Shown here piece by piece: positions 16,592-27,907 of a stretch of DNA of 47,019 bases. Source of the DNA: a bacterium (GTDB lineage: Bacteria > JAJVIF01 > JAPKYR01); assembly GCA_026394215.1 (NCBI GenBank), contig JAPKYR010000182.1:1-47019 (forward strand). The letters run 5' to 3'. The notes below the pieces were generated by a model, which made no database searches, was not told where the DNA came from, and saw nothing but the letters and a program-made list of their open reading frames with translations. Each line of letters begins with the position of its first letter. The first letter of the stretch is position 1. The translations under genes and the position numbers were made by a program.

Positions 16592-16608
16592 AACGCAAGG
16601 AATTAAAA

Positions 16609-18126
16609 ATGGATTCAACGAAAAAGCAGCGTGGGGATAACCGAAATCCCGGAATTTCGACCGAAATGGAATCTTCGAGTTCCAGTTTCATAGAAAACGC
16701 CCTTGTTGGCTTCTATCGCACGAAGTATTCGGACGGCCGGATATTGATGGTGAATAATGCGCTGACAAAAATGTTCGGGTTCGAAGATCCCGAAGATATG
16801 CTCGCTGGCGAAAATACAATCGCAAACCATTATGTCGACGACATAAGGCGTAACGAGCTTCTGGAGATTCTCCAACGTGACGGCGAAGTCAGTAATTTTG
16901 AATCCATGATGCGCAGGAAAGATGGCAGTATTTTCTGGGTTCGATTTACGGCTCGATATTTTCCGGAGATCGGATGTATAGAAGGTGTGGTTACCGATAT
17001 CACAGGAGAAAAAAATGCTCTCGAATCTCTCGGGCAAACCAGCGAATTATTCCATGCCCTACTGAACTCAATCCCCGACATGATATTTATCCAGGATAAA
17101 GCAGGTCGGTATACGCACATAAATCCCGCAATCGAAAAATTATTCAATATCCCCGCATCGGAAATAATAGGGAAGACCAACCGGGATATTCACTTACACA
17201 ACAATGAAAACCGAGACAGCCATGACGAAGATCGCGTATTCAATGGCGAAATCATTGAAAGGGATTTCACCAAAACCATAGACGGCAGGATTCACAGCTT
17301 CCATATGATCCTGTACCCGATAAACGGCGCGGACGGGAGTATTAGCGGCATTTTCGGAATAGTCCATGATATTACCGACACGATGCAATATCTTGAGGAG
17401 ATTAAGGTGAAAAACATTGAGCTCCTGTCGGCTATCGAAGTGAAAAATAAATTCATTTCGATGGTCTCCCATGAACTCAGAACTCCCCTCGTTCCGATCA
17501 TGGGGTATAGCGAGCTCCTTCTGGATGGTACTTATGGCGCTCTTCCGGAGGCGATGCGCGAACCTCTTCAAACTATCTACGACCGCTCGGAGGATTTGAA
17601 AAAACAGATCGAGGACCTTCTGACTATTTCCCGAATCGATCAGTTGGCGATCAGAATAATTAAAAAATCCGTATATGTCGACCAACTCGTTCAGGACGCC
17701 GTGAATTCCTACCGCGCCATTAAATCAGGGAAAAATATTGAATTTATTATTGAATGCGAACCATGCCGTATCGTCGCCGATCCTGAAAGGCTCAATCAGG
17801 TGATTCATAACCTGGTCGGGAACGCAATTAAATACTCGAATGATGTGGTGGCGATAACGATACGGACAGGAACCCGCGCGGGAAAAGGATTCATTGAGGT
17901 CAGCGATAATGGAATCGGAATCGCCGTGGAATATCTTCCATATATTTTCGATCGTTTTTACCAGGTTGAAAATCTCGAAACAAGAAAACATGAAGGCTCC
18001 GGACTTGGGTTGTCGATAGTAAAGGAAATTATCGAACTTATGGACGGCACTATCGAGGTTTCCAGCAAACCCGGAGTCGGGACGACTTTCACCATCGAAT
18101 TCCCTCTTGCCGAAGCAACAACATAG
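16609..18126 (+). CDS. Sensor histidine kinase with two PAS domains
   Basis: Two PAS regions, H-box SMVSHELRTPLVPIMGYSELL, N-box NQVIHNLVGNAIKYS, G boxes DNGIGI and GSGLGLSIVKEI. Confidence 0.93.
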   Translation: MDSTKKQRGDNRNPGISTEMESSSSSFIENALVGFYRTKYSDGRILMVNNALTKMFGFEDPEDMLAGENTIANHYVDDIRRNELLEILQRDGEVSNFESMMRRKDGSIFWVRFTARYFPEIGCIEGVVTDITGEKNALESLGQTSELFHALLNSIPDMIFIQDKAGRYTHINPAIEKLFNIPASEIIGKTNRDIHLHNNENRDSHDEDRVFNGEIIERDFTKTIDGRIHSFHMILYPINGADGSISGIFGIVHDITDTMQYLEEIKVKNIELLSAIEVKNKFISMVSHELRTPLVPIMGYSELLLDGTYGALPEAMREPLQTIYDRSEDLKKQIEDLLTISRIDQLAIRIIKKSVYVDQLVQDAVNSYRAIKSGKNIEFIIECEPCRIVADPERLNQVIHNLVGNAIKYSNDVVAITIRTGTRAGKGFIEVSDNGIGIAVEYLPYIFDRFYQVENLETRKHEGSGLGLSIVKEIIELMDGTIEVSSKPGVGTTFTIEFPLAEATT

Positions 18127-18147
18127 ACAACCCACTAAACCTGTGCC

Positions 18148-18283
18148 GCCTCCACGCGAGCGAAGCGAGCCTGGAGGTGCAGGATAATATTTGCAACTAC
18201 AGAATCACCTCCAAAAATCTGCCTTCGCTCGTGCAATATGTAGCCTGGATCAGTATTGCAATGCTACGGCGGATTTGTGGAGG
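18148..18283. repeat. Complex inverted-repeat element between convergent genes
   Basis: CCTCCA/TGGAGG (18149-18154/18172-18177); CCTCCAAAAATCTGCC/GGCGGATTTGTGGAGG (18208-18223/18268-18283); internal TGCAATA/TATTGCA and GTAGC/GCTAC. Confidence 0.6.
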
Positions 18284-18440
18284 CTGTACCGGCTTAAGAG
18301 CCACAAGCCCGATCATTAAGCCCTTCTGTGAGATAGCAGAATAGCATTTTTAACGTGTTTATGAGGGTTACAGAGGATAGCAGGCTATTCATTATGTTTA
18401 GCAGAGCATAGCAATTCCTGGTTGCCTTAACAGGCAAAAA

Positions 18441-18459
18441 GGCGATCCTGGGGATCGCC
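18441..18459 (-). terminator. Intrinsic terminator of the cytochrome/porin operon
   Basis: GGCGATCC tgg GGATCGCC; the minus strand continues into TTTTT (18440-18436). Confidence 0.75.
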
Positions 18460-18500
18460 CTTTACGAAATATCCAATTCATCACTTGCCAGATAGGTAAA

Positions 18501-19703
18501 TTAGATCGCAAAATCCAGGCGTGCTGTCCATAATGTCTCGTTGATGTCCGAGCCTGATAGATCTGATTCATTGCGACGCGACCATTCTAAATGCAACGCC
18601 ATGTTGTCCTCGATATAGTAGCGCCCGCCGACTGTCCATCGAGTGATATCACCAAGGATTGATGAAGCGTTGACCCAGTCGTATCTGGTAAAACCTGCAA
18701 ATTTGATGGTGGGAGTGTAGGTTACTTCCGCGAAACCGCCCGAGTATGGGACATTGCCACTGAAGTTCCAGAGCTCGGAACTATCATTCGAGCGCAAATA
18801 CTGAAGCGCCAGATTCCACTGTTCAACGTTAAAGCTGGCGTCCACACCCCATCGATCGAAGCTTTGTTCCGACATATCGGTTTCTTGCCACGAGGCTAAC
18901 GGTTTAGCTTGCCCGAAATAACCGGTCACACCTATCCGTTGTCCTGCAGTCTGGCCTTCACCGGGACCGAATACATAAGCTGCTCTGACATAATAATCGC
19001 TGGGTGCCGTGTCTGATCCGTTTGTCTCCGATCCATCTAGAATGCCGAAGGCGTACCGGAATCCATCCCTGCCCCAACCCGTAAACTCTACTCCTACCTG
19101 GTTGTCAGAGAACGCCGGACCACCCGGGAATGTGAAATCGTAGATTTCGTATGGTGAAATACTAAGGTGCCGTTTATTACTGAAAGCCACATAAGCAGGC
19201 TCGAACTTCCCGGCTCGGATATTAAACCATGTGGATCCTAAGTTGCTGAAGATTACGTTAGCGCTCTCGATCGCACCATTCTGGCCGGCGACTCCTCGAG
19301 AGGAATTAATTTCAGGTGGGTAGACAAACATGAATCCTATGTCAGGGCCGATTAATCCACCGGCAAGGATATCAACACCATTAACCTGGAATTCATTGAC
19401 ATCAACGTTTGAGGTTTGAGTGCTGTCAAAGTTGTCGTTGTTGTAACCTGCGCTCGTACGAATCGCAACAGGTACGGAGGTCTCAGTGATGTCTTTCTCC
19501 AATGTTTCCATTCCCGGTAACTGGTAACCATTCATCCGGAAACGCTGGCCGAAATCGTTAAGCCTCGGATAAGTCGAATGGCACATTGTACACTCGAAAC
19601 CATACTTTCTCGCAAAAACAGGTATGGCCGAGGCTTTGGACGGCAGAAGTGTCACTAATACAAGAGGCGCTAACATAAGCAGGAATAAGGTTTTTATACT
19701 CAT
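18501..19703 (-). CDS. Outer-membrane porin with an N-terminal monohaem c-type motif (Cyc2-like cytochrome-porin)
   Basis: Signal peptide, then AIPVFARKYGFECTMCHSTYPRLNDFGQRFRMNGYQ (CxxCH), then a beta-barrel-like ~340-aa region ending ARLDFAI. Confidence 0.72.
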   Translation of the reverse strand: MSIKTLFLLMLAPLVLVTLLPSKASAIPVFARKYGFECTMCHSTYPRLNDFGQRFRMNGYQLPGMETLEKDITETSVPVAIRTSAGYNNDNFDSTQTSNVDVNEFQVNGVDILAGGLIGPDIGFMFVYPPEINSSRGVAGQNGAIESANVIFSNLGSTWFNIRAGKFEPAYVAFSNKRHLSISPYEIYDFTFPGGPAFSDNQVGVEFTGWGRDGFRYAFGILDGSETNGSDTAPSDYYVRAAYVFGPGEGQTAGQRIGVTGYFGQAKPLASWQETDMSEQSFDRWGVDASFNVEQWNLALQYLRSNDSSELWNFSGNVPYSGGFAEVTYTPTIKFAGFTRYDWVNASSILGDITRWTVGGRYYIEDNMALHLEWSRRNESDLSGSDINETLWTARLDFAI

Positions 19704-20749
19704 CTCAGACCTCCACCAGGGTCAGCCGGTAAGCCGGGACCTTCAGGGAATGTGGGAATGGGAACTTCGGGTATCGTACCGGTAAGCGATTCCATAAACG
19801 CTACCAGATCTTCTTTTTCCTGCTGGGTGAGTGCAAGCGGGAACATAAGCAGATCGAGATTGTCGTTCTGAATACCACCCCGGTTGTAGAAATCGACTAC
19901 ATCCATCAGGGTCTGCTCGGACCCGGTATGCAGATAAGGGTAGGTCAAAGCGATGTTCCGCAGGGTTGGGGTCTTGAAACGACCAAAATCAGCAGGATCG
20001 TTTGTCTCATTAAACCGGCCTGAATTTGGATTCTCCCCATCAAAACCAACGCCCAGGTTGTGGAACGACTGGTCCGAAAACATTGGCCCGCTATGGCAGG
20101 TCGAGCAATGAGCTTTCCCATTGAATAGATCTCTGCCCCGTTCTGCGGCGCTTGTCCATTGTGAGTCGTCACCCATCAGGTGAAGATCGTATGGTGATGG
20201 CCCGGAGATAATTGTTCTCTCGAATGATGCGATTGCTTTCGCAATTCCATCTGTAGTGACATCTGTTCCGAATACTTCCTGGAACTGCTCTACGTAACCC
20301 GGTATGGCATTCAATTTAACGACGACGTTTTCAAGGGTTTCACCCATCTCTATCGGATTATGAATGGGTCCAAGAGCCTGGGCTTCCAGGGATGGAGCCC
20401 GTCCATCCCAGAATTGATAGCGCATGTATGCGGAATTAATAATTGTTCCGGAGTTGCGTCCTCCAACCTGGCCGGCGATCCCGGTATCGGTTTTGCCGTG
20501 ATTAGCCCAGCCGGTGCGGGGATCATGGCAGGTCGCGCAACTGATAGTGCTGTCTGCTGAAAGCCTTGTGTCAAAATAAAGTTGTGCCCCAAGCCGGATT
20601 TTCGCATCTGTCTGGGGATTATCCGCCGGTATGGGTACCGGTGGCATAAGTGTGTTAGCCATGAACTGACCTTGAGCGAGCAACTTTGGCTGCTGAAGCA
20701 TCAGAGCCAGACCAACTAACACGATCATTAGAAGTACCAGTCTTCTCAT
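19700..20749 (-). CDS. Di-haem cytochrome c peroxidase/MauG-family protein
   Basis: LGAQLYFDTRLSADSTISCATCHDPRTGWA and GKAHCSTCHSGPMFSDQSFHNLGV; FKTPTLRNIALTYPYLHTGS. Confidence 0.92.
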   Translation of the reverse strand: MRRLVLLMIVLVGLALMLQQPKLLAQGQFMANTLMPPVPIPADNPQTDAKIRLGAQLYFDTRLSADSTISCATCHDPRTGWANHGKTDTGIAGQVGGRNSGTIINSAYMRYQFWDGRAPSLEAQALGPIHNPIEMGETLENVVVKLNAIPGYVEQFQEVFGTDVTTDGIAKAIASFERTIISGPSPYDLHLMGDDSQWTSAAERGRDLFNGKAHCSTCHSGPMFSDQSFHNLGVGFDGENPNSGRFNETNDPADFGRFKTPTLRNIALTYPYLHTGSEQTLMDVVDFYNRGGIQNDNLDLLMFPLALTQQEKEDLVAFMESLTGTIPEVPIPTFPEGPGLPADPGGGLR

Positions 20750-20945
20750 AAAGTCCTCCTTGCTGGTTTGCTATTAGTTTTTTCGTTAATGCTGTTTAAT
20801 GAGTATATAACAATTTAAATGTCAACACAATGGCAGAATCTATTCCCATATTATCCCTTCCTAGCTTAGCTTCGCTACAGATCCTAACCTCCACAGTAGA
20901 AACAGGCTACCACACCAAAATATTTAATTTCTAATTTACTATTCT

Positions 20946-21888
20946 CTACTGACTCAGATACGCTGCCAGCAAATCGATTCCGGCCTGGACGTCCTTCATG
21001 CTGACAGTTTCGTTCACTGAATGCCCATAGCGCGTGGGAATAGACAGTGTAATCGATCTTGCGCCTATCCCTGTCCGCTGCATCGCGCCCGCATCGGTGC
21101 CGCCCCGCGGAAGAATCTCAAGCTGGTGCGGAATTTTTTTGCACCTGCGCGTGAGGCTCAGACCCCGGGATATCCATCGCGAGCGTTATATCGAGCGCGA
21201 TTCCCACGTCCGGCTGGATTTCATACGATGATGTGGTTGCGCCTCGAAGCCCGACCTCCTCCTGTGTCGTGCCGACGGCGTAGATATCATGGGTATTGCC
21301 TTTGGTTTTTCTCAGCGCCTCGATCATCACGTAGACTCCGACACGGTCGTCCATCGCCTTGCAGTTTACAAGGTCGCCCATCTCTGTAAGCTCGCGCAGC
21401 CACACGACAGGATCGCCGACCTCCACTTTTTTGGCGGCCTCTTTTCCCGAAAGCCCGAGATCGATGTAGAAATCGGTCAATGCCAGTCCTTTCTTCGTCT
21501 CCTCGGGAGTCTGCATGTGGATCGGCTTCCCGGCAATACTCAAAAGGCCGGGGAGTTTATGTTTCCCTTTCCCGAGCACCATCACCTGCTGACACACAAG
21601 GGTTTTCGGGTCGAACCCCCCGACAGTGACAAATCTTAAAAATCCGGTTTTCTCATCGACATGGCTTACTATAAAGCCAATCTCATCGATATGACCCGCG
21701 ATCATGATTTTCTTTCGGTCTTTATCTTTCCCCTTCCCTTTTTTCAGTCCTACGACACTTCCGAGGGTGTTAACCCAGACTTTGTCGCATAAGGGCTCAA
21801 GCTCCTCCTGGACAATCTTTCTTGTTTCATCCTCGAACCCGGATGGTCCGAACGATTCTGTTAATTTCTTTAAAAGTTGTAATGTCAT
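20946..21888 (-). pseudogene. M42-family aminopeptidase disrupted by an internal deletion and frameshift
   Basis: ORF 21118-21888 has AGHIDEIGF, CKAMDDRVG, TTQEEVGLRG and LAMDIPGSEPHAQVQK, then stops. Another frame continues IPHQLEILPRGGTDAGAMQRTGIGARSITLSIPTRYGHSVNETVSMKDVQAGIDLLAAYLSQ* to 20946. The junction is at T7 (21134-21140). Confidence 0.8.
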
Positions 21889-22060: not shown

Positions 22061-25000
22061 CTATGATGGTTTGACCCAGAAACCGACCCAGTCTACAAAG
22101 AGGTTCGCGCTGCCGCACCCGTCGAAGCCGTTGTGTCTAAGGCCGACTTTCCAGGGACCGCCCCAAATGGGGGATCCAATAGCGATAGTATTTTGCTTCA
22201 GTGCAGGCTTGTTCGCGCCGCAACCCTGTCCGGTAATAATTGTAGCCGTACTGACGAGAGTGCAGCTTGAATTCAGGAAGCTGAAGGTAACATTATCCAG
22301 TCCGCTTGTAGCGGACAAACCGGGATTAACATAAGCCTGGAGGGTTCCCACGAATCCAGCACTGGGCGCAGCGGGGAATAAAACAGTGCTGCCCCACATG
22401 CTTGACGATGAGGAGGCGCCATAATTTGTCATCCTGAGATAACCATTCGCACCGTCATAGCTCCATGTGTAGCTTCCAATACCGGTTACGCATGCATCCT
22501 CAGCCCACATATCGCCGGGAGCCGAAAAATCGGTAAACCAGACACGATCCCACATGGTGATTGGCGGGTGGGGAATTGCGGTCGCGAAATTCGTTCCGTC
22601 GTATGCGCTGAGGTAAACAAATAACAGCCCGGGAGCTTGTGCTTCATAATCGCTTAAATTAACCGTGAATGAAGTACCTGCGATAGGCGCGCTCCAAGCC
22701 GGGTCGCCATGTGGTGGAGCCGATACCGATGTTGTCACTGCGTACCGGTTCTCAGGCGTTTCGCCGTCGCAATCTGATACTGTGAAGTTATAGTGAAGCG
22801 CCTGAACGAAGGTGAGGCCGGAATAACCAGAGGATGCACCGCCATCAGAAACGAACGGCCCGAATCCTTCGGTGGCCGCAAATGAACTTATCGAAGGCGT
22901 GGTATTGGTATAGTTGATTGAAATATCAAAACTTGTCTGGGTTGCAGAACCATCGGACACACGTTGGAAGAGATGCCATGTTCCATAACCATAAGCGGAC
23001 CAGAGAACATCAAAAGAATTTCCGGTAAATAAAGTCCAATCGTCGACTGGGGGCGTGGAAGTACTGCTCACACCCCATTCGCGGGTAAGAGTCGTCCCGT
23101 CGCAATCCGATGCAATACCGGCATCATATGTCGACAGAACATTAGCACACGTGATTGCTGTGTTCCCGATCGGTGGAGCTGGTGAATTAGGAGGCGTATT
23201 TGTATAAACAACATGAAGGTATGCCGGATCATATACCGTCGTAACACCATCGGAAACTCTCTGGAATAGATATACATCTCCTGGAGGGATGCTCGGGGAT
23301 GAGTAATCGACTATGAAAGAGGTACCTGTGATATCCTGCCAGCCAGTCACCGGAGGTGTAGGACTGCCGTTCCATCCCCATTGATGGGTAAGGGTCTGAG
23401 TGTGGTCGCAATCAGAAACACCGCCGCATGAATAATTTTCAGCGGTGTTAGTACATGTTACGGAAGTCGCGCCGGTAATTGTCCCTAAGAATTCCGGTGG
23501 TGTATTAACTACAGTAACTACTAACGGAACACTGGTTTGGGTATGATCGCCATCGTTTGCTTTCTGAACCAGGTGGTAATTTACCCCGGGGTTATATGTC
23601 GTCCAGTCGATCTCGACCGGACTCGATGTAAAGAAGACCCAATCGCTAACAGGGGTTCCCGACGCGTCCTGAACCTGCCAGAAGCGGGTCATCGGTGTGT
23701 CAGGACATCCTGTTGGCACAGTCCCCATTTCGTACAGTTCAGCGATAGAGCTGCAATCTACGGATGTGCTTCCTGACGGCATCGAGGGAGATCCAAGGGT
23801 ACTGGGATGAACGTAAACGATAAGCGCGTCCGAGTTAGCGGTATCAGCGTTAAGTGTTGCGCGCTGGAAAAGATAAACGTACCCAAATCCGAAATCTACC
23901 GGATCTGCCAGGAATGATGTACCGAAAAATTCCGTCCAACCGGACATAGGCGGGGTTGGAGTCGAGCCAACTGCCCACTCGCGGGTGATATCGACACCTG
24001 AACATCCTGCCATATAATCGCCGGCCTGATAAGTTTCCGTAGCCCCATCGCAAACCACATCCTCGTTTCCGACAGGTGTGGAAGGCTTACCAAGGGCTGG
24101 AGGACCAACTGTGACAGCAAGAGAAACGCTGTAGGTATAATCGAACCCATCATACGCTCTCTGGAACATATAATATGTTCCCTCAGTGTACTCGGACCAG
24201 TCTATAGTCCATGTATCAAAGCTGAAATCAACCCAACCTGTAGCCGGCGGCCAATCCACGATAGTAATCGCATAACTCCTGGACAGTGTCTGCCATGTAT
24301 CGCAATCATTCAGAGGACCGCCCTGATATGCTTCATTGTCATTCGAACAACTTACGGTAACATCGCCGACAGGTTGGCTGTCAAAAAAAACGGGGGCGGT
24401 ATTAAGATACACAACCGTTAATGGATTACTGACCGTCTGGAGATCCCCATCAGATACTTTCTGGAACAGGTAAAGCGGTTGTTCAGCGACAGAACCTGTA
24501 AAATCGACGCTCATCGTCCCGCCTAAAAATAAAATCCATGTCCCGCCAGTCGGAGTTACAGAATCCGTTGATAAGTAATAATAAGTGGTGAGGATACTGC
24601 CGAAATCGCAGTCGAAAATAACGCCTGAGGTGTAGAAAGCAGGTGTCGTAGTACAGGTAACCTCAGTTGGTCCGGATGGAACATCTGGTTTATTCGGGGC
24701 GGTATTATTTTTCAAGATATGCAGCGAAGTGGTAATAAGCTGACCTGTTCCATCATCCACGGAAATGAACAGGTACCAGTCGCCATTGGCGACAATACCG
24801 TAGTCTACAGCAAATGTGCTACCGGTATATACGCTCCAGTGGCCGCCGACCGGAAAATCCGGAGATGTCGACAGGTACCACATGGTGGAAAATTCCGTGC
24901 TATCGCAGTCGATTATTTCAGTTATGGAATATTGCGCATCAGTCATCGAGCAGTCGACGGATGTGGGCCCTGATGGAATTCCCAGTGTTGGGGGAGCGTT

Positions 25001-27907
25001 CAGCTTTTCCACAGATAACGGAAGGCTCAATTGATCATCCAGGCCGCTGACAGATCGCTGATAAAGGAACAGCATGCCATTAGGATAATCACTCCAGTCG
25101 ACATCGAATAAATCGCCGGAAAATTCAAACCACGTGCTGGGTGGGATCATCATGCCGGTTGAAACTCCCCAGTAACGGATGAATACATCCTCGATGTCGC
25201 ACTCACTCGCCTGACCCCCGTCGTACTCCTGAACAGAATCGGTACACATCACCGATTCAGGTCCTATTGGAGTATCCGGTTTTCTCGGAGGTGTATTAAT
25301 CTTGGTGATTTTGAGCGAGGGTGAATTTACATAATCAACGCCGTTATCGCTGGCTCTCTGGAACAGGTAATGATCGCCGCTGATATAATTTGACCAATTG
25401 ATATTAAACGTTTTACCTGTAAAATCTGCCCATCCTGTCGAAGGGGCTACATTAGTATCAGATAAAGCCCACTGCCTGGTCACAGGATCGTTTTCGCAAT
25501 CGACTATGTCTCCTCCGTTGTATTCCTCGTTAGTCATCGAACAATCCACAAACGTATTACCGAATGGAGTCGATGGAGTATCCGGAGGCGAATTGTGCCG
25601 GGTAACAGCCAATGAGTCGCTTATGATTTCAGACTCATCGGTGCCGATCTTCTGCCACACATAATAAACGCCTAGAGGATAGGTTGACCAGTCAACTGTG
25701 AAGGTAGACATCAATGTGAGCTGCCAGCCGTCTGTCGGCGGAACATCCGTAGTTGATATAACCCATGATCTGGCAGGCATGCTATCGCCGTCGCAATCAG
25801 CTCCTCCGACCAGCATGTACACTTCTGCGATTGAATAGCAATAAACATCAGTAGCGCCGGATGGTGGTTCAAGGGGCTCGCTGGGAGTATCTACCCTCTC
25901 GACAATATAGAATTCACTAAATTGTGGAATGAAAGAGATTCCGATTGCCTTGGCCACGATCCACCATTGACCAACAGATGTTTGATTCCAGCTATAATTA
26001 ATAAATGTATCCTGAGACGGTATCGTCCAATTGGGATCCATCGGGTCGATTGTTTCGGGGGGGTCGCCTGCGCCGCGTAACCACTGGAAAATTGGCTGTA
26101 TAGGCTGCCCGCAGGTGCGTATGGAAACCTCGTACAACGCATCGGTAACAGTGCATAAAACATTATTTTTATATTCATCGTCAGAAGTAATCGGGTCTAC
26201 CAGAAATGAAGACGCCTGTTTCTGAATAGAAAGTTCCAGCTCATCTGTGAACTGGCCGTCCGTGACCTGGAACCATAGCTCGTAAGATCCGGGAGGATTA
26301 GCGGAACCATCAGACCAGTCGATAACGGCAGTATTATCGTCTGAATAAGGACCAAGAAATCCCGGAACTCCCGGGGGTCTAATCAGTTCCCATTTGTACT
26401 GAATAACACTGTATGTATTCGGATCGGTGGCGATACACGTATAAACGATATCGGCATCAAAACAAGTCACCGATTCCGGACCCTGGATCTCTTCAATCAC
26501 TGGCGGCTCATTGGAAGGATCACCCTGAGAAACGTCTACGCTGAACTTAGTGTAAGCGGCAAGACGCGCATCTGCAGGGAAGATGCCAAAGGGGCCGTAG
26601 CCATTCGGATCCTTGTTGTACACAGCCAGGAAAATCTCCTTTGTTCCGGACTTCTGAGGTTCAAGATCGGAAATTACGACACTCAAAGTTGTCGAATATT
26701 CCCCTATTGAAACCTCCGAACCGGCAAGAGCGGTCGAATTAAGCAGATAACCGGTCCCGCCAAACAACCCATCAGGACTTCCAAGCCCGATCGAATCGAC
26801 CTGATCGAAAGCGCCGGTTCCACCAAAAGATTGAAGACCCTGCCAGTCATAGATTTTAAGGGTTAAAACCAGGTTGCCTCCCCCACTACCAGATACCTCA
26901 TCGTAAAACAAATTACTGCCGGTTGAATCGGCATCAATAAAAACCGCTTCCGCCACATTAGCCGTAGGCGGGAACTGCTTAGGCATCGGGAAACCAATCG
27001 GGTCGCCCTGGTCATTGACCGCGAGATCCCAGTGGGTGAGAATAAGATACTGGAACTTTATAACAGGCGACCCGCCATTCATCGGGAATTTAATCTCGTA
27101 CTGACGCGAAGCGGGTGAGTTCTGCTGCCAGACGCCTCGTGTCGTAGTGGAGCCGATGGAATCGAAATAAGGCTGGATATCTTCGTTTGTGCCGATATAG
27201 GTCGAGAAATATTTATATGGGTTTACACTGGCGGTCCAGTTTACGTCTTTCGTCCCGAAAATACCTTCCGAGTAACCGAAAAATGTCGGGGCGGTGAACT
27301 CCACCGGATTCATCCATCGCGTGTATCCATCGAAATTCAGAAGCTGAATATCGTTGACGCCGCCATACTTGACAGCCGGATCCTCATCATATGTATTTCC
27401 GCCATCTCCAATTATTATACCCATGGTATCGAAACATGCCAGCTTCGGATCATTGATAGGATGCTTGATAGTGAATTCTGCGGATACCAGCCCATCAGAC
27501 AGAAGCTGGTTAAAAGCAATAACCTTAATTTGCAAATTCGCGATATCGCCCCCAGGGGGTTGGAGCAGTTTCAGGACATTGAGTGCTATCTCAGCGCCCC
27601 TTATCGGGACAACATCAAACTGCGTGGTCTGGTAATCGAATGTTACATCGTACAAACCAATGACAGTATTGGGTGACGTTGCTCCCTGCGAAGCGTGTGA
27701 ATCATCCTCGCTCGGAGTTAGTCCGGGGTCAGCGGAATTATCCGCACCCGAAGTGATATCGGGGCCGGGATCGGTTCCAGATGGGGGTGTAATCGGGTTT
27801 CCCCCGCTTCCGGAACAGGATAATGCGAAAAGCATAATCAGGCTAAGAAGCCCTGAAAGCCAATATCGAGAATAGGAGGTCATCATATTTTCCTTTCTGC
27901 AGCCCAA
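22061..27907 (-). CDS. Giant repetitive lipoprotein: shared N-terminal module plus tandem Cys-pair repeats
   Basis: Lipobox LFALSC; LLNFDGYTRWMNPVEFTAP and LTLKIYDWQG; then about ten ~100-aa units NTPP..P..P.G...V.C.....Y..G...DCD.....R.W.........GW..F.G..F.VDWS.Y..G..YLFQR..DG. The start may be at codon 8 or 9. Confidence 0.85.
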   Translation of the reverse strand: MGCRKENMMTSYSRYWLSGLLSLIMLFALSCSGSGGNPITPPSGTDPGPDITSGADNSADPGLTPSEDDSHASQGATSPNTVIGLYDVTFDYQTTQFDVVPIRGAEIALNVLKLLQPPGGDIANLQIKVIAFNQLLSDGLVSAEFTIKHPINDPKLACFDTMGIIIGDGGNTYDEDPAVKYGGVNDIQLLNFDGYTRWMNPVEFTAPTFFGYSEGIFGTKDVNWTASVNPYKYFSTYIGTNEDIQPYFDSIGSTTTRGVWQQNSPASRQYEIKFPMNGGSPVIKFQYLILTHWDLAVNDQGDPIGFPMPKQFPPTANVAEAVFIDADSTGSNLFYDEVSGSGGGNLVLTLKIYDWQGLQSFGGTGAFDQVDSIGLGSPDGLFGGTGYLLNSTALAGSEVSIGEYSTTLSVVISDLEPQKSGTKEIFLAVYNKDPNGYGPFGIFPADARLAAYTKFSVDVSQGDPSNEPPVIEEIQGPESVTCFDADIVYTCIATDPNTYSVIQYKWELIRPPGVPGFLGPYSDDNTAVIDWSDGSANPPGSYELWFQVTDGQFTDELELSIQKQASSFLVDPITSDDEYKNNVLCTVTDALYEVSIRTCGQPIQPIFQWLRGAGDPPETIDPMDPNWTIPSQDTFINYSWNQTSVGQWWIVAKAIGISFIPQFSEFYIVERVDTPSEPLEPPSGATDVYCYSIAEVYMLVGGADCDGDSMPARSWVISTTDVPPTDGWQLTLMSTFTVDWSTYPLGVYYVWQKIGTDESEIISDSLAVTRHNSPPDTPSTPFGNTFVDCSMTNEEYNGGDIVDCENDPVTRQWALSDTNVAPSTGWADFTGKTFNINWSNYISGDHYLFQRASDNGVDYVNSPSLKITKINTPPRKPDTPIGPESVMCTDSVQEYDGGQASECDIEDVFIRYWGVSTGMMIPPSTWFEFSGDLFDVDWSDYPNGMLFLYQRSVSGLDDQLSLPLSVEKLNAPPTLGIPSGPTSVDCSMTDAQYSITEIIDCDSTEFSTMWYLSTSPDFPVGGHWSVYTGSTFAVDYGIVANGDWYLFISVDDGTGQLITTSLHILKNNTAPNKPDVPSGPTEVTCTTTPAFYTSGVIFDCDFGSILTTYYYLSTDSVTPTGGTWILFLGGTMSVDFTGSVAEQPLYLFQKVSDGDLQTVSNPLTVVYLNTAPVFFDSQPVGDVTVSCSNDNEAYQGGPLNDCDTWQTLSRSYAITIVDWPPATGWVDFSFDTWTIDWSEYTEGTYYMFQRAYDGFDYTYSVSLAVTVGPPALGKPSTPVGNEDVVCDGATETYQAGDYMAGCSGVDITREWAVGSTPTPPMSGWTEFFGTSFLADPVDFGFGYVYLFQRATLNADTANSDALIVYVHPSTLGSPSMPSGSTSVDCSSIAELYEMGTVPTGCPDTPMTRFWQVQDASGTPVSDWVFFTSSPVEIDWTTYNPGVNYHLVQKANDGDHTQTSVPLVVTVVNTPPEFLGTITGATSVTCTNTAENYSCGGVSDCDHTQTLTHQWGWNGSPTPPVTGWQDITGTSFIVDYSSPSIPPGDVYLFQRVSDGVTTVYDPAYLHVVYTNTPPNSPAPPIGNTAITCANVLSTYDAGIASDCDGTTLTREWGVSSTSTPPVDDWTLFTGNSFDVLWSAYGYGTWHLFQRVSDGSATQTSFDISINYTNTTPSISSFAATEGFGPFVSDGGASSGYSGLTFVQALHYNFTVSDCDGETPENRYAVTTSVSAPPHGDPAWSAPIAGTSFTVNLSDYEAQAPGLLFVYLSAYDGTNFATAIPHPPITMWDRVWFTDFSAPGDMWAEDACVTGIGSYTWSYDGANGYLRMTNYGASSSSSMWGSTVLFPAAPSAGFVGTLQAYVNPGLSATSGLDNVTFSFLNSSCTLVSTATIITGQGCGANKPALKQNTIAIGSPIWGGPWKVGLRHNGFDGCGSANLFVDWVGFWVKPS

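Follow-up and report, generated by a model that had tools for sequence, protein, structure and literature searches.

A MauG-like di-haem enzyme and a Cyc2-like mono-haem porin are encoded side by side, as a conserved two-gene unit, in the 47,019-nt stretch of bacterial DNA analysed here (the window) and in distantly related bacteria. Sequence comparisons and a predicted porin structure suggest that the two proteins form a device for electron uptake and peroxide reduction, in which the porin haem would feed a MauG-like enzyme that reduces H2O2; we give this reading an even chance of being right.

Both genes lie on the minus strand, the enzyme gene upstream of the porin gene (Table 1). The TGA of the enzyme (19700-19702) overlaps the ATG of the porin (19701-19703); the 3' end of the enzyme gene reads CCT GGT GGA GGT CTG AGA TGA, in which GGAGGT encodes two glycines and stands 5 nt from the porin ATG. 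The ATGA overlap and the Shine-Dalgarno sequence within the last peroxidase codons are exactly as the first-pass annotation had described them, and the operon of porin and di-haem enzyme that it proposed is supported by this overlap together with the conserved pairing. About 40 nt beyond the porin stop, a hairpin (−18.2 kcal/mol, z −3.3) carries a run of five T, so that the transcript probably ends there; a simple terminator scan did not flag this hairpin. Porin and enzyme are each the sole member of their own family found in the host genome.

Table 1. Positions of the features discussed, numbered along the window
Feature	Positions	Strand	Remarks
Segment with PAS histidine kinase and gene pair	16595..20945		missing between galU and M42 gene in G001
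Intrinsic-terminator-like hairpin	18436..18459	-	8-bp stem, loop of 3, T5
CDS, mono-haem cytochrome-porin, Cyc2-like	18501..19703	-	400 aa; ORF, alignment, predicted fold
Beta-barrel, 16 predicted strands	18507..19469	-	residues 79-399; AlphaFold, Foldseek
Haem motif CTMCH, then PRL	19578..19592	-	residues 38-42; invariant in 77 sequences
Cyc2 signature AIPVFARKY	19602..19628	-	residues 26-34; criterion from PMC8406198
ATGA stop/start overlap	19700..19703	-	read from sequence
CDS, di-haem MauG-like putative peroxidase	19700..20749	-	349 aa, Sec signal peptide; PF03150 match
Porin Shine-Dalgarno GGAGGT	19709..19714	-	within final peroxidase codons
Tyr288 of enzyme	19886..19888	-	aligns with MauG axial Tyr294; Met in YhjA
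Second haem motif CSTCH	20093..20107	-	enzyme residues 215-219
First haem motif CATCH	20525..20539	-	enzyme residues 71-75
Peroxidase Shine-Dalgarno GGAGGA	20754..20759	-	read from sequence

Porin relatives were collected by an alignment-based, pattern-limited scan in which each GTDB species was represented by a single genome, and the best 80 were taken; a single-sequence porin query of genome contigs gave no match, and the alignment query was required. The enzyme gene lies directly upstream on the same strand at all 21 of the nearest porin relatives (35-56% identity, E ≤ 3e-62) and at none of the 59 that follow among the best 80 (E 5e-40 or weaker). Conserved co-occurrence of the pair, to which the first-pass annotation had tied its reading, therefore holds throughout the nearest relatives, and the opposite outcome that it had named, closest homologues lacking a peroxidase neighbour, was encountered in none of them. 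At paired loci complete at both ends, the genes overlap or are separated by at most 25 nt (a 4-nt overlap at four further loci, gaps of 7-25 nt at most others), except at L112, where the likely porin start leaves a gap of 9 or 39 nt. The recurrence of short overlaps and gaps at homologous loci, together with the retention of the pair in every one of its nearest relatives, goes beyond chance. No third conserved gene was found in the flanks of the paired loci.

The paired loci, at least 21 in number, come from at least 11 named phyla (Armatimonadota, Elusimicrobiota, Eisenbacteria, Lentisphaerota, a 'Deltaproteobacterium', Bacteroidota, Krumholzibacteria, Planctomycetota, Acidobacteriota, Zixiibacteriota and Aminicenantes); the relatives and the window apparently stem from metagenome-assembled genomes, in which individual taxon labels may be wrong, and such mislabelling leaves the agreement among the 21 loci unaffected. 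Across a broad set of 385 diverse genomes, the porin of the paired clade was found only in the window's own genome, and the other porins in that set had no peroxidase neighbour. The best enzyme relatives in 375 genomes (≤55% identity) were likewise not adjoined by a porin, which indicates that the pairing belongs to one subclade and not to MauG-like enzymes generally.

The porin tree included 21 paired porins (the window's among them, the broken L112 porin excluded) and the enzyme tree 20 paired enzymes. One branch of the porin tree sets all paired porins apart (94/94), and one of the enzyme tree does so for all paired enzymes (84/91); the two trees share an identical split into two subclades, each with mixed host phyla. 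Matching clades and mixed hosts of this kind fit a transfer of the pair between phyla as a unit. A plasmid collection contained only one weak porin relative; plasmid-borne mobility is thus not supported. In G001, a sister species in the window's genus, galU and the M42 peptidase gene lie within about 80 bp of each other; in the window they are separated by 4.35 kb in which a PAS histidine kinase is encoded along with the pair, a difference that reflects either an insertion in the window genome or a loss in G001. Neither flanking repeats nor mobile genes were found bounding this segment, and its GC content shows no deviation.

The histidine kinase (16609-18126; PAS-PAS-histidine kinase, with no adjoining response regulator among the listed ORFs) is present or absent jointly with the pair relative to G001; as a regulator within the module it was rejected, since it is not conserved at other paired loci. 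The M42 peptidase gene of the window (21118-21888) is missing about 95 bp of the G001 version and loses its frame near 21141, through either gene decay or a fault in the assembly. Positions 22061-27907 encode a predicted secreted protein of 1948 aa in which many domains are repeated and which G001 has in a partly similar form.

Cyc2 is a fused cytochrome-porin for which Fe(II) oxidation has been demonstrated in Mariprofundus, and its published criteria are a signature AXPXFAR[QK][TY], a CXXCH, a PXL, at least 365 residues and a 16-strand OprO/OprP-like barrel (PMC8406198). In the window porin, AIPVFARKY precedes CTMCH, which is the only CXXCH and is soon followed by PRL (in the order CTMCH STY PRL), and the protein has 400 aa including its signal peptide; an AlphaFold model from an alignment of 77 relatives (pLDDT 90) shows 16 strands, and a Foldseek search of this model against the PDB ranks OprP (2o4v) first and OprO third and seventh. 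By the published sequence and fold criteria, the latter applied to the predicted model, the porin is a Cyc2-like fused cytochrome-porin. The first-pass annotation had anticipated this resemblance, a single CxxCH right after the signal peptide (in the peptide FARKYGFECTMCHSTYPRLNDFGQRFRMNGYQ, residues 30-61, with the motif at residues 38-42) and a barrel of about 16 strands, and all three were borne out; the failed barrel prediction that it had named as a refutation did not occur, the model being of high confidence. The N-terminal hydrophobic helix of the porin spans residues 3-18. Pfam, NCBIfam and PDB sequence searches give the porin no family name; in Pfam its sole match, to phosphate-selective porins, stays below threshold.

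Two porin residues, His371 and Glu373, do not vary among the 21 aligned porins of the paired clade and are common beyond it, and His371 is a possible candidate for a (distal) haem or metal ligand. The two residues (window about 18585-18593) fall in strand 15. An equivalent of His371 is absent from those porins with a 5-haem partner that were compared.

The enzyme scores 193.9 bits against PF03150 (CCP_MauG), above the cut-off of 25.6; its best NCBIfam matches, the MbnH family TIGR04039 (237.3 bits) and MauG TIGR03791 (234.5 bits), both lie under their curated cut-offs (362.85 and 443.85, respectively). Among PDB sequences, entry 4aal, a cytochrome c551 peroxidase, matches the enzyme best (E 1e-57); we take this protein to be MacA of G. 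sulfurreducens. Tyr288 occupies the place of the axial ligand to the C-terminal haem; in the alignment an annotated MauG has Tyr there too, and an E. coli sequence that is presumably YhjA, a record without annotation that we named from its three haem motifs, has Met. Published ligands at this position are Tyr for MauG and BthA and either Met or His for classical peroxidases (PMC7567364, PMC6405878). The di-haem reading of the first-pass annotation stands, given CATCH and CSTCH; its label of peroxidase needs correcting in that the enzyme is not a classical cytochrome c peroxidase, since a MauG-type Tyr replaces the Met or His ligand. The Tyr288 ligand and the scores below the MauG and MbnH cut-offs together mark the enzyme, as judged from its sequence, as MauG-like, neither a canonical peroxidase nor MauG itself. 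Tyr288, Trp81 and Glu134 are invariant wherever the sequence of a paired enzyme includes them, and so are both CXXCH motifs; the distal loop His of 4aal/MacA is not conserved at the matching loop in the aligned paired enzymes. The Tyr ligand is also present in many unpaired relatives and is therefore not specific to porin-paired enzymes.

The gene beside the porin differs among lineages. At 22 loci, from one well-sampled phylum plus some further phyla, a mono-haem porin is encoded after a 4-5-haem cytochrome; Acidobacteria-type Cyc2-like porins often have an ordinary di-haem c-type cytochrome next downstream; Nitrospira-type porins sometimes adjoin a mono-haem cytochrome; and Acidithiobacillus has cyc1 next after cyc2 (PMC10654088). 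Because the porins of other lineages adjoin other haem proteins, the neighbouring slot seems to be the position of a periplasmic electron partner, and the MauG-like enzyme probably holds it in the paired clade. This exchange of partners is our main argument for electron transfer between porin and enzyme.

The mono-haem porins that often directly follow a 4-5-haem cytochrome belong to another large lineage (most genomes of one phylum); these cytochromes give weak c554/NapC/c7 matches, and the two genes make up a second conserved porin-cytochrome pair (loci L002, L009, L013-L031 and L035-L040). The downstream cytochrome of the Acidobacteria type (loci L114, L115, L118, L123, L130, L133, L143, L154, L166-L168 and L170) has roughly 300 aa and two c-type haem domains.

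For haem loading, porin-enzyme contact, electron direction, donor and peroxide as the oxidant, we infer the following scheme. The porin would form a barrel in the outer membrane, plugged by its mono-haem part on the periplasmic side, and would accept single electrons from a reductant dissolved outside the cell or present in the pore; by analogy to Cyc2, this would most likely be Fe(II). The co-translated MauG-like enzyme would sit in the periplasm, in the electron-acceptor place of the cytochromes of other lineages; in its resting diferric form it would react with H2O2 to reach a high-valent (bis-Fe(IV)-type) state, which two electrons from the porin haem would re-reduce. The net effect would be to bring extracellular electrons inward and convert periplasmic H2O2 to water and, with Fe(II) as the donor, to couple iron oxidation to controlled peroxide removal rather than Fenton chemistry. 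That the pair is a transferred module in which H2O2 serves as the terminal oxidant of outer-membrane electron uptake—i.e. a peroxide-driven, Fenton-avoiding iron oxidase—is a more tentative extension, which we put at somewhat below even.

MauG-type haem potentials are negative. The potential of Cyc2-PV1 is +208 mV (PMC8406198). A donor near this value could not reduce a low-potential resting enzyme but could reduce its high-valent state, so that H2O2 would have to react first, and such a donor requires an enzyme in no need of pre-reduction. The Tyr ligand and the lack of a conserved distal (activation) His suggest that this enzyme needs no reduction before it reacts with H2O2, and thus fit this demand. 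MauG-type enzymes are known for protein oxidation; they are not known to turn over peroxide with electrons from a cytochrome, which counts against the proposal. BthA, an enzyme of the MauG type, does reduce H2O2 (PMC6405878). The host genome contains a cytochrome c assembly gene. A gene for a haem-copper oxidase/NO-reductase-like subunit I in the host is split into two frames (G000 contig C22; L175, L176).

The main rival to electron transfer from porin to enzyme is maturation, in which the enzyme, in the manner of MauG or MbnH, would use H2O2 to modify the porin, or another protein, by side-chain oxidation, with no electron-transfer partnership. An axial Tyr as in MauG and BthA (PMC6405878), the top NCBIfam matches to MbnH and MauG (237 and 234 bits, both below cut-off) and the tight one-to-one pairing with a single putative substrate all suit maturation; however, the paired porins have no conserved Trp, their conserved tyrosines are mostly common to unpaired porins (the main exception being Tyr262), and plain cytochromes occupy the neighbouring slot in other lineages. 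We consider maturation unlikely, and a plain carrier role or mere co-regulation less likely still.

In the former, porin and di-haem protein would be a generic conduit for extracellular electron transfer, outward or inward, with the di-haem protein a mere carrier and peroxide incidental. Porins of other lineages are indeed paired with multi-haem carriers, and the porin family is wide, with substrates mostly untested (PMC8406198), but the invariant residues of catalytic type (both CXXCH, Glu134, Trp81 and Tyr288) would be needless in a simple carrier. Strict two-gene pairing over at least 11 phyla without a third gene, as well as the match between porin and enzyme trees, speaks against a stress operon whose periplasmic peroxidase and porin (haem-bearing or for solutes) share regulation and transfer and function separately; the evidence for contact between the two proteins comes from sequence, and operon proteins often do not interact, but we assign this reading the lowest probability of the three.

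No report of a porin paired with a MauG-like enzyme was found in the openly accessible papers searched. Cyc2-like genes serve as metagenome markers of microbial iron oxidation, most of them without tested function; the paired lineage, invariably accompanied by a MauG-like enzyme, offers a concrete and testable partner, and warns that a Cyc2-like match need not mean feeding a respiratory chain. The proposed electron-uptake and peroxide-reduction device, if true, would link extracellular iron oxidation to periplasmic peroxide defence and could provide an electron donor for a MauG-like subgroup that lacks an assigned one. With one porin type and lineage-specific haem partners, partner choice becomes a question that can be studied.

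Compared with known systems, the enzyme resembles MauG, MbnH and BthA (PF03150) in its two CXXCH motifs, the Tyr at the axial position and the conserved Glu and Trp; it differs in scoring below the MauG and MbnH cut-offs and in having a cytochrome-porin as its partner, and no mau or mbn genes were seen adjoining its gene. With the canonical bacterial cytochrome c peroxidases CcpA, MacA and YhjA it shares fold family and haem motifs, but it has Tyr in place of the Met ligand and the distal loop His of 4aal is not conserved. The porin has in common with Mariprofundus Cyc2-PV1, Acidithiobacillus Cyc2 and Leptospirillum Cyt572 the signature, the single CXXCH, the PXL, a length of at least 365 aa and, as predicted, a 16-strand OprO/OprP-like barrel, whereas its partner gene encodes a MauG-like peroxidase and not, as after cyc2 in Acidithiobacillus, cyc1. 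The pair is similar to the MtrAB, MtoAB and Pcc porin-cytochrome complexes in combining an outer-membrane barrel with a haem protein; in contrast to these complexes, a single haem would be fused to the barrel itself, without a multi-haem cytochrome threaded through it.
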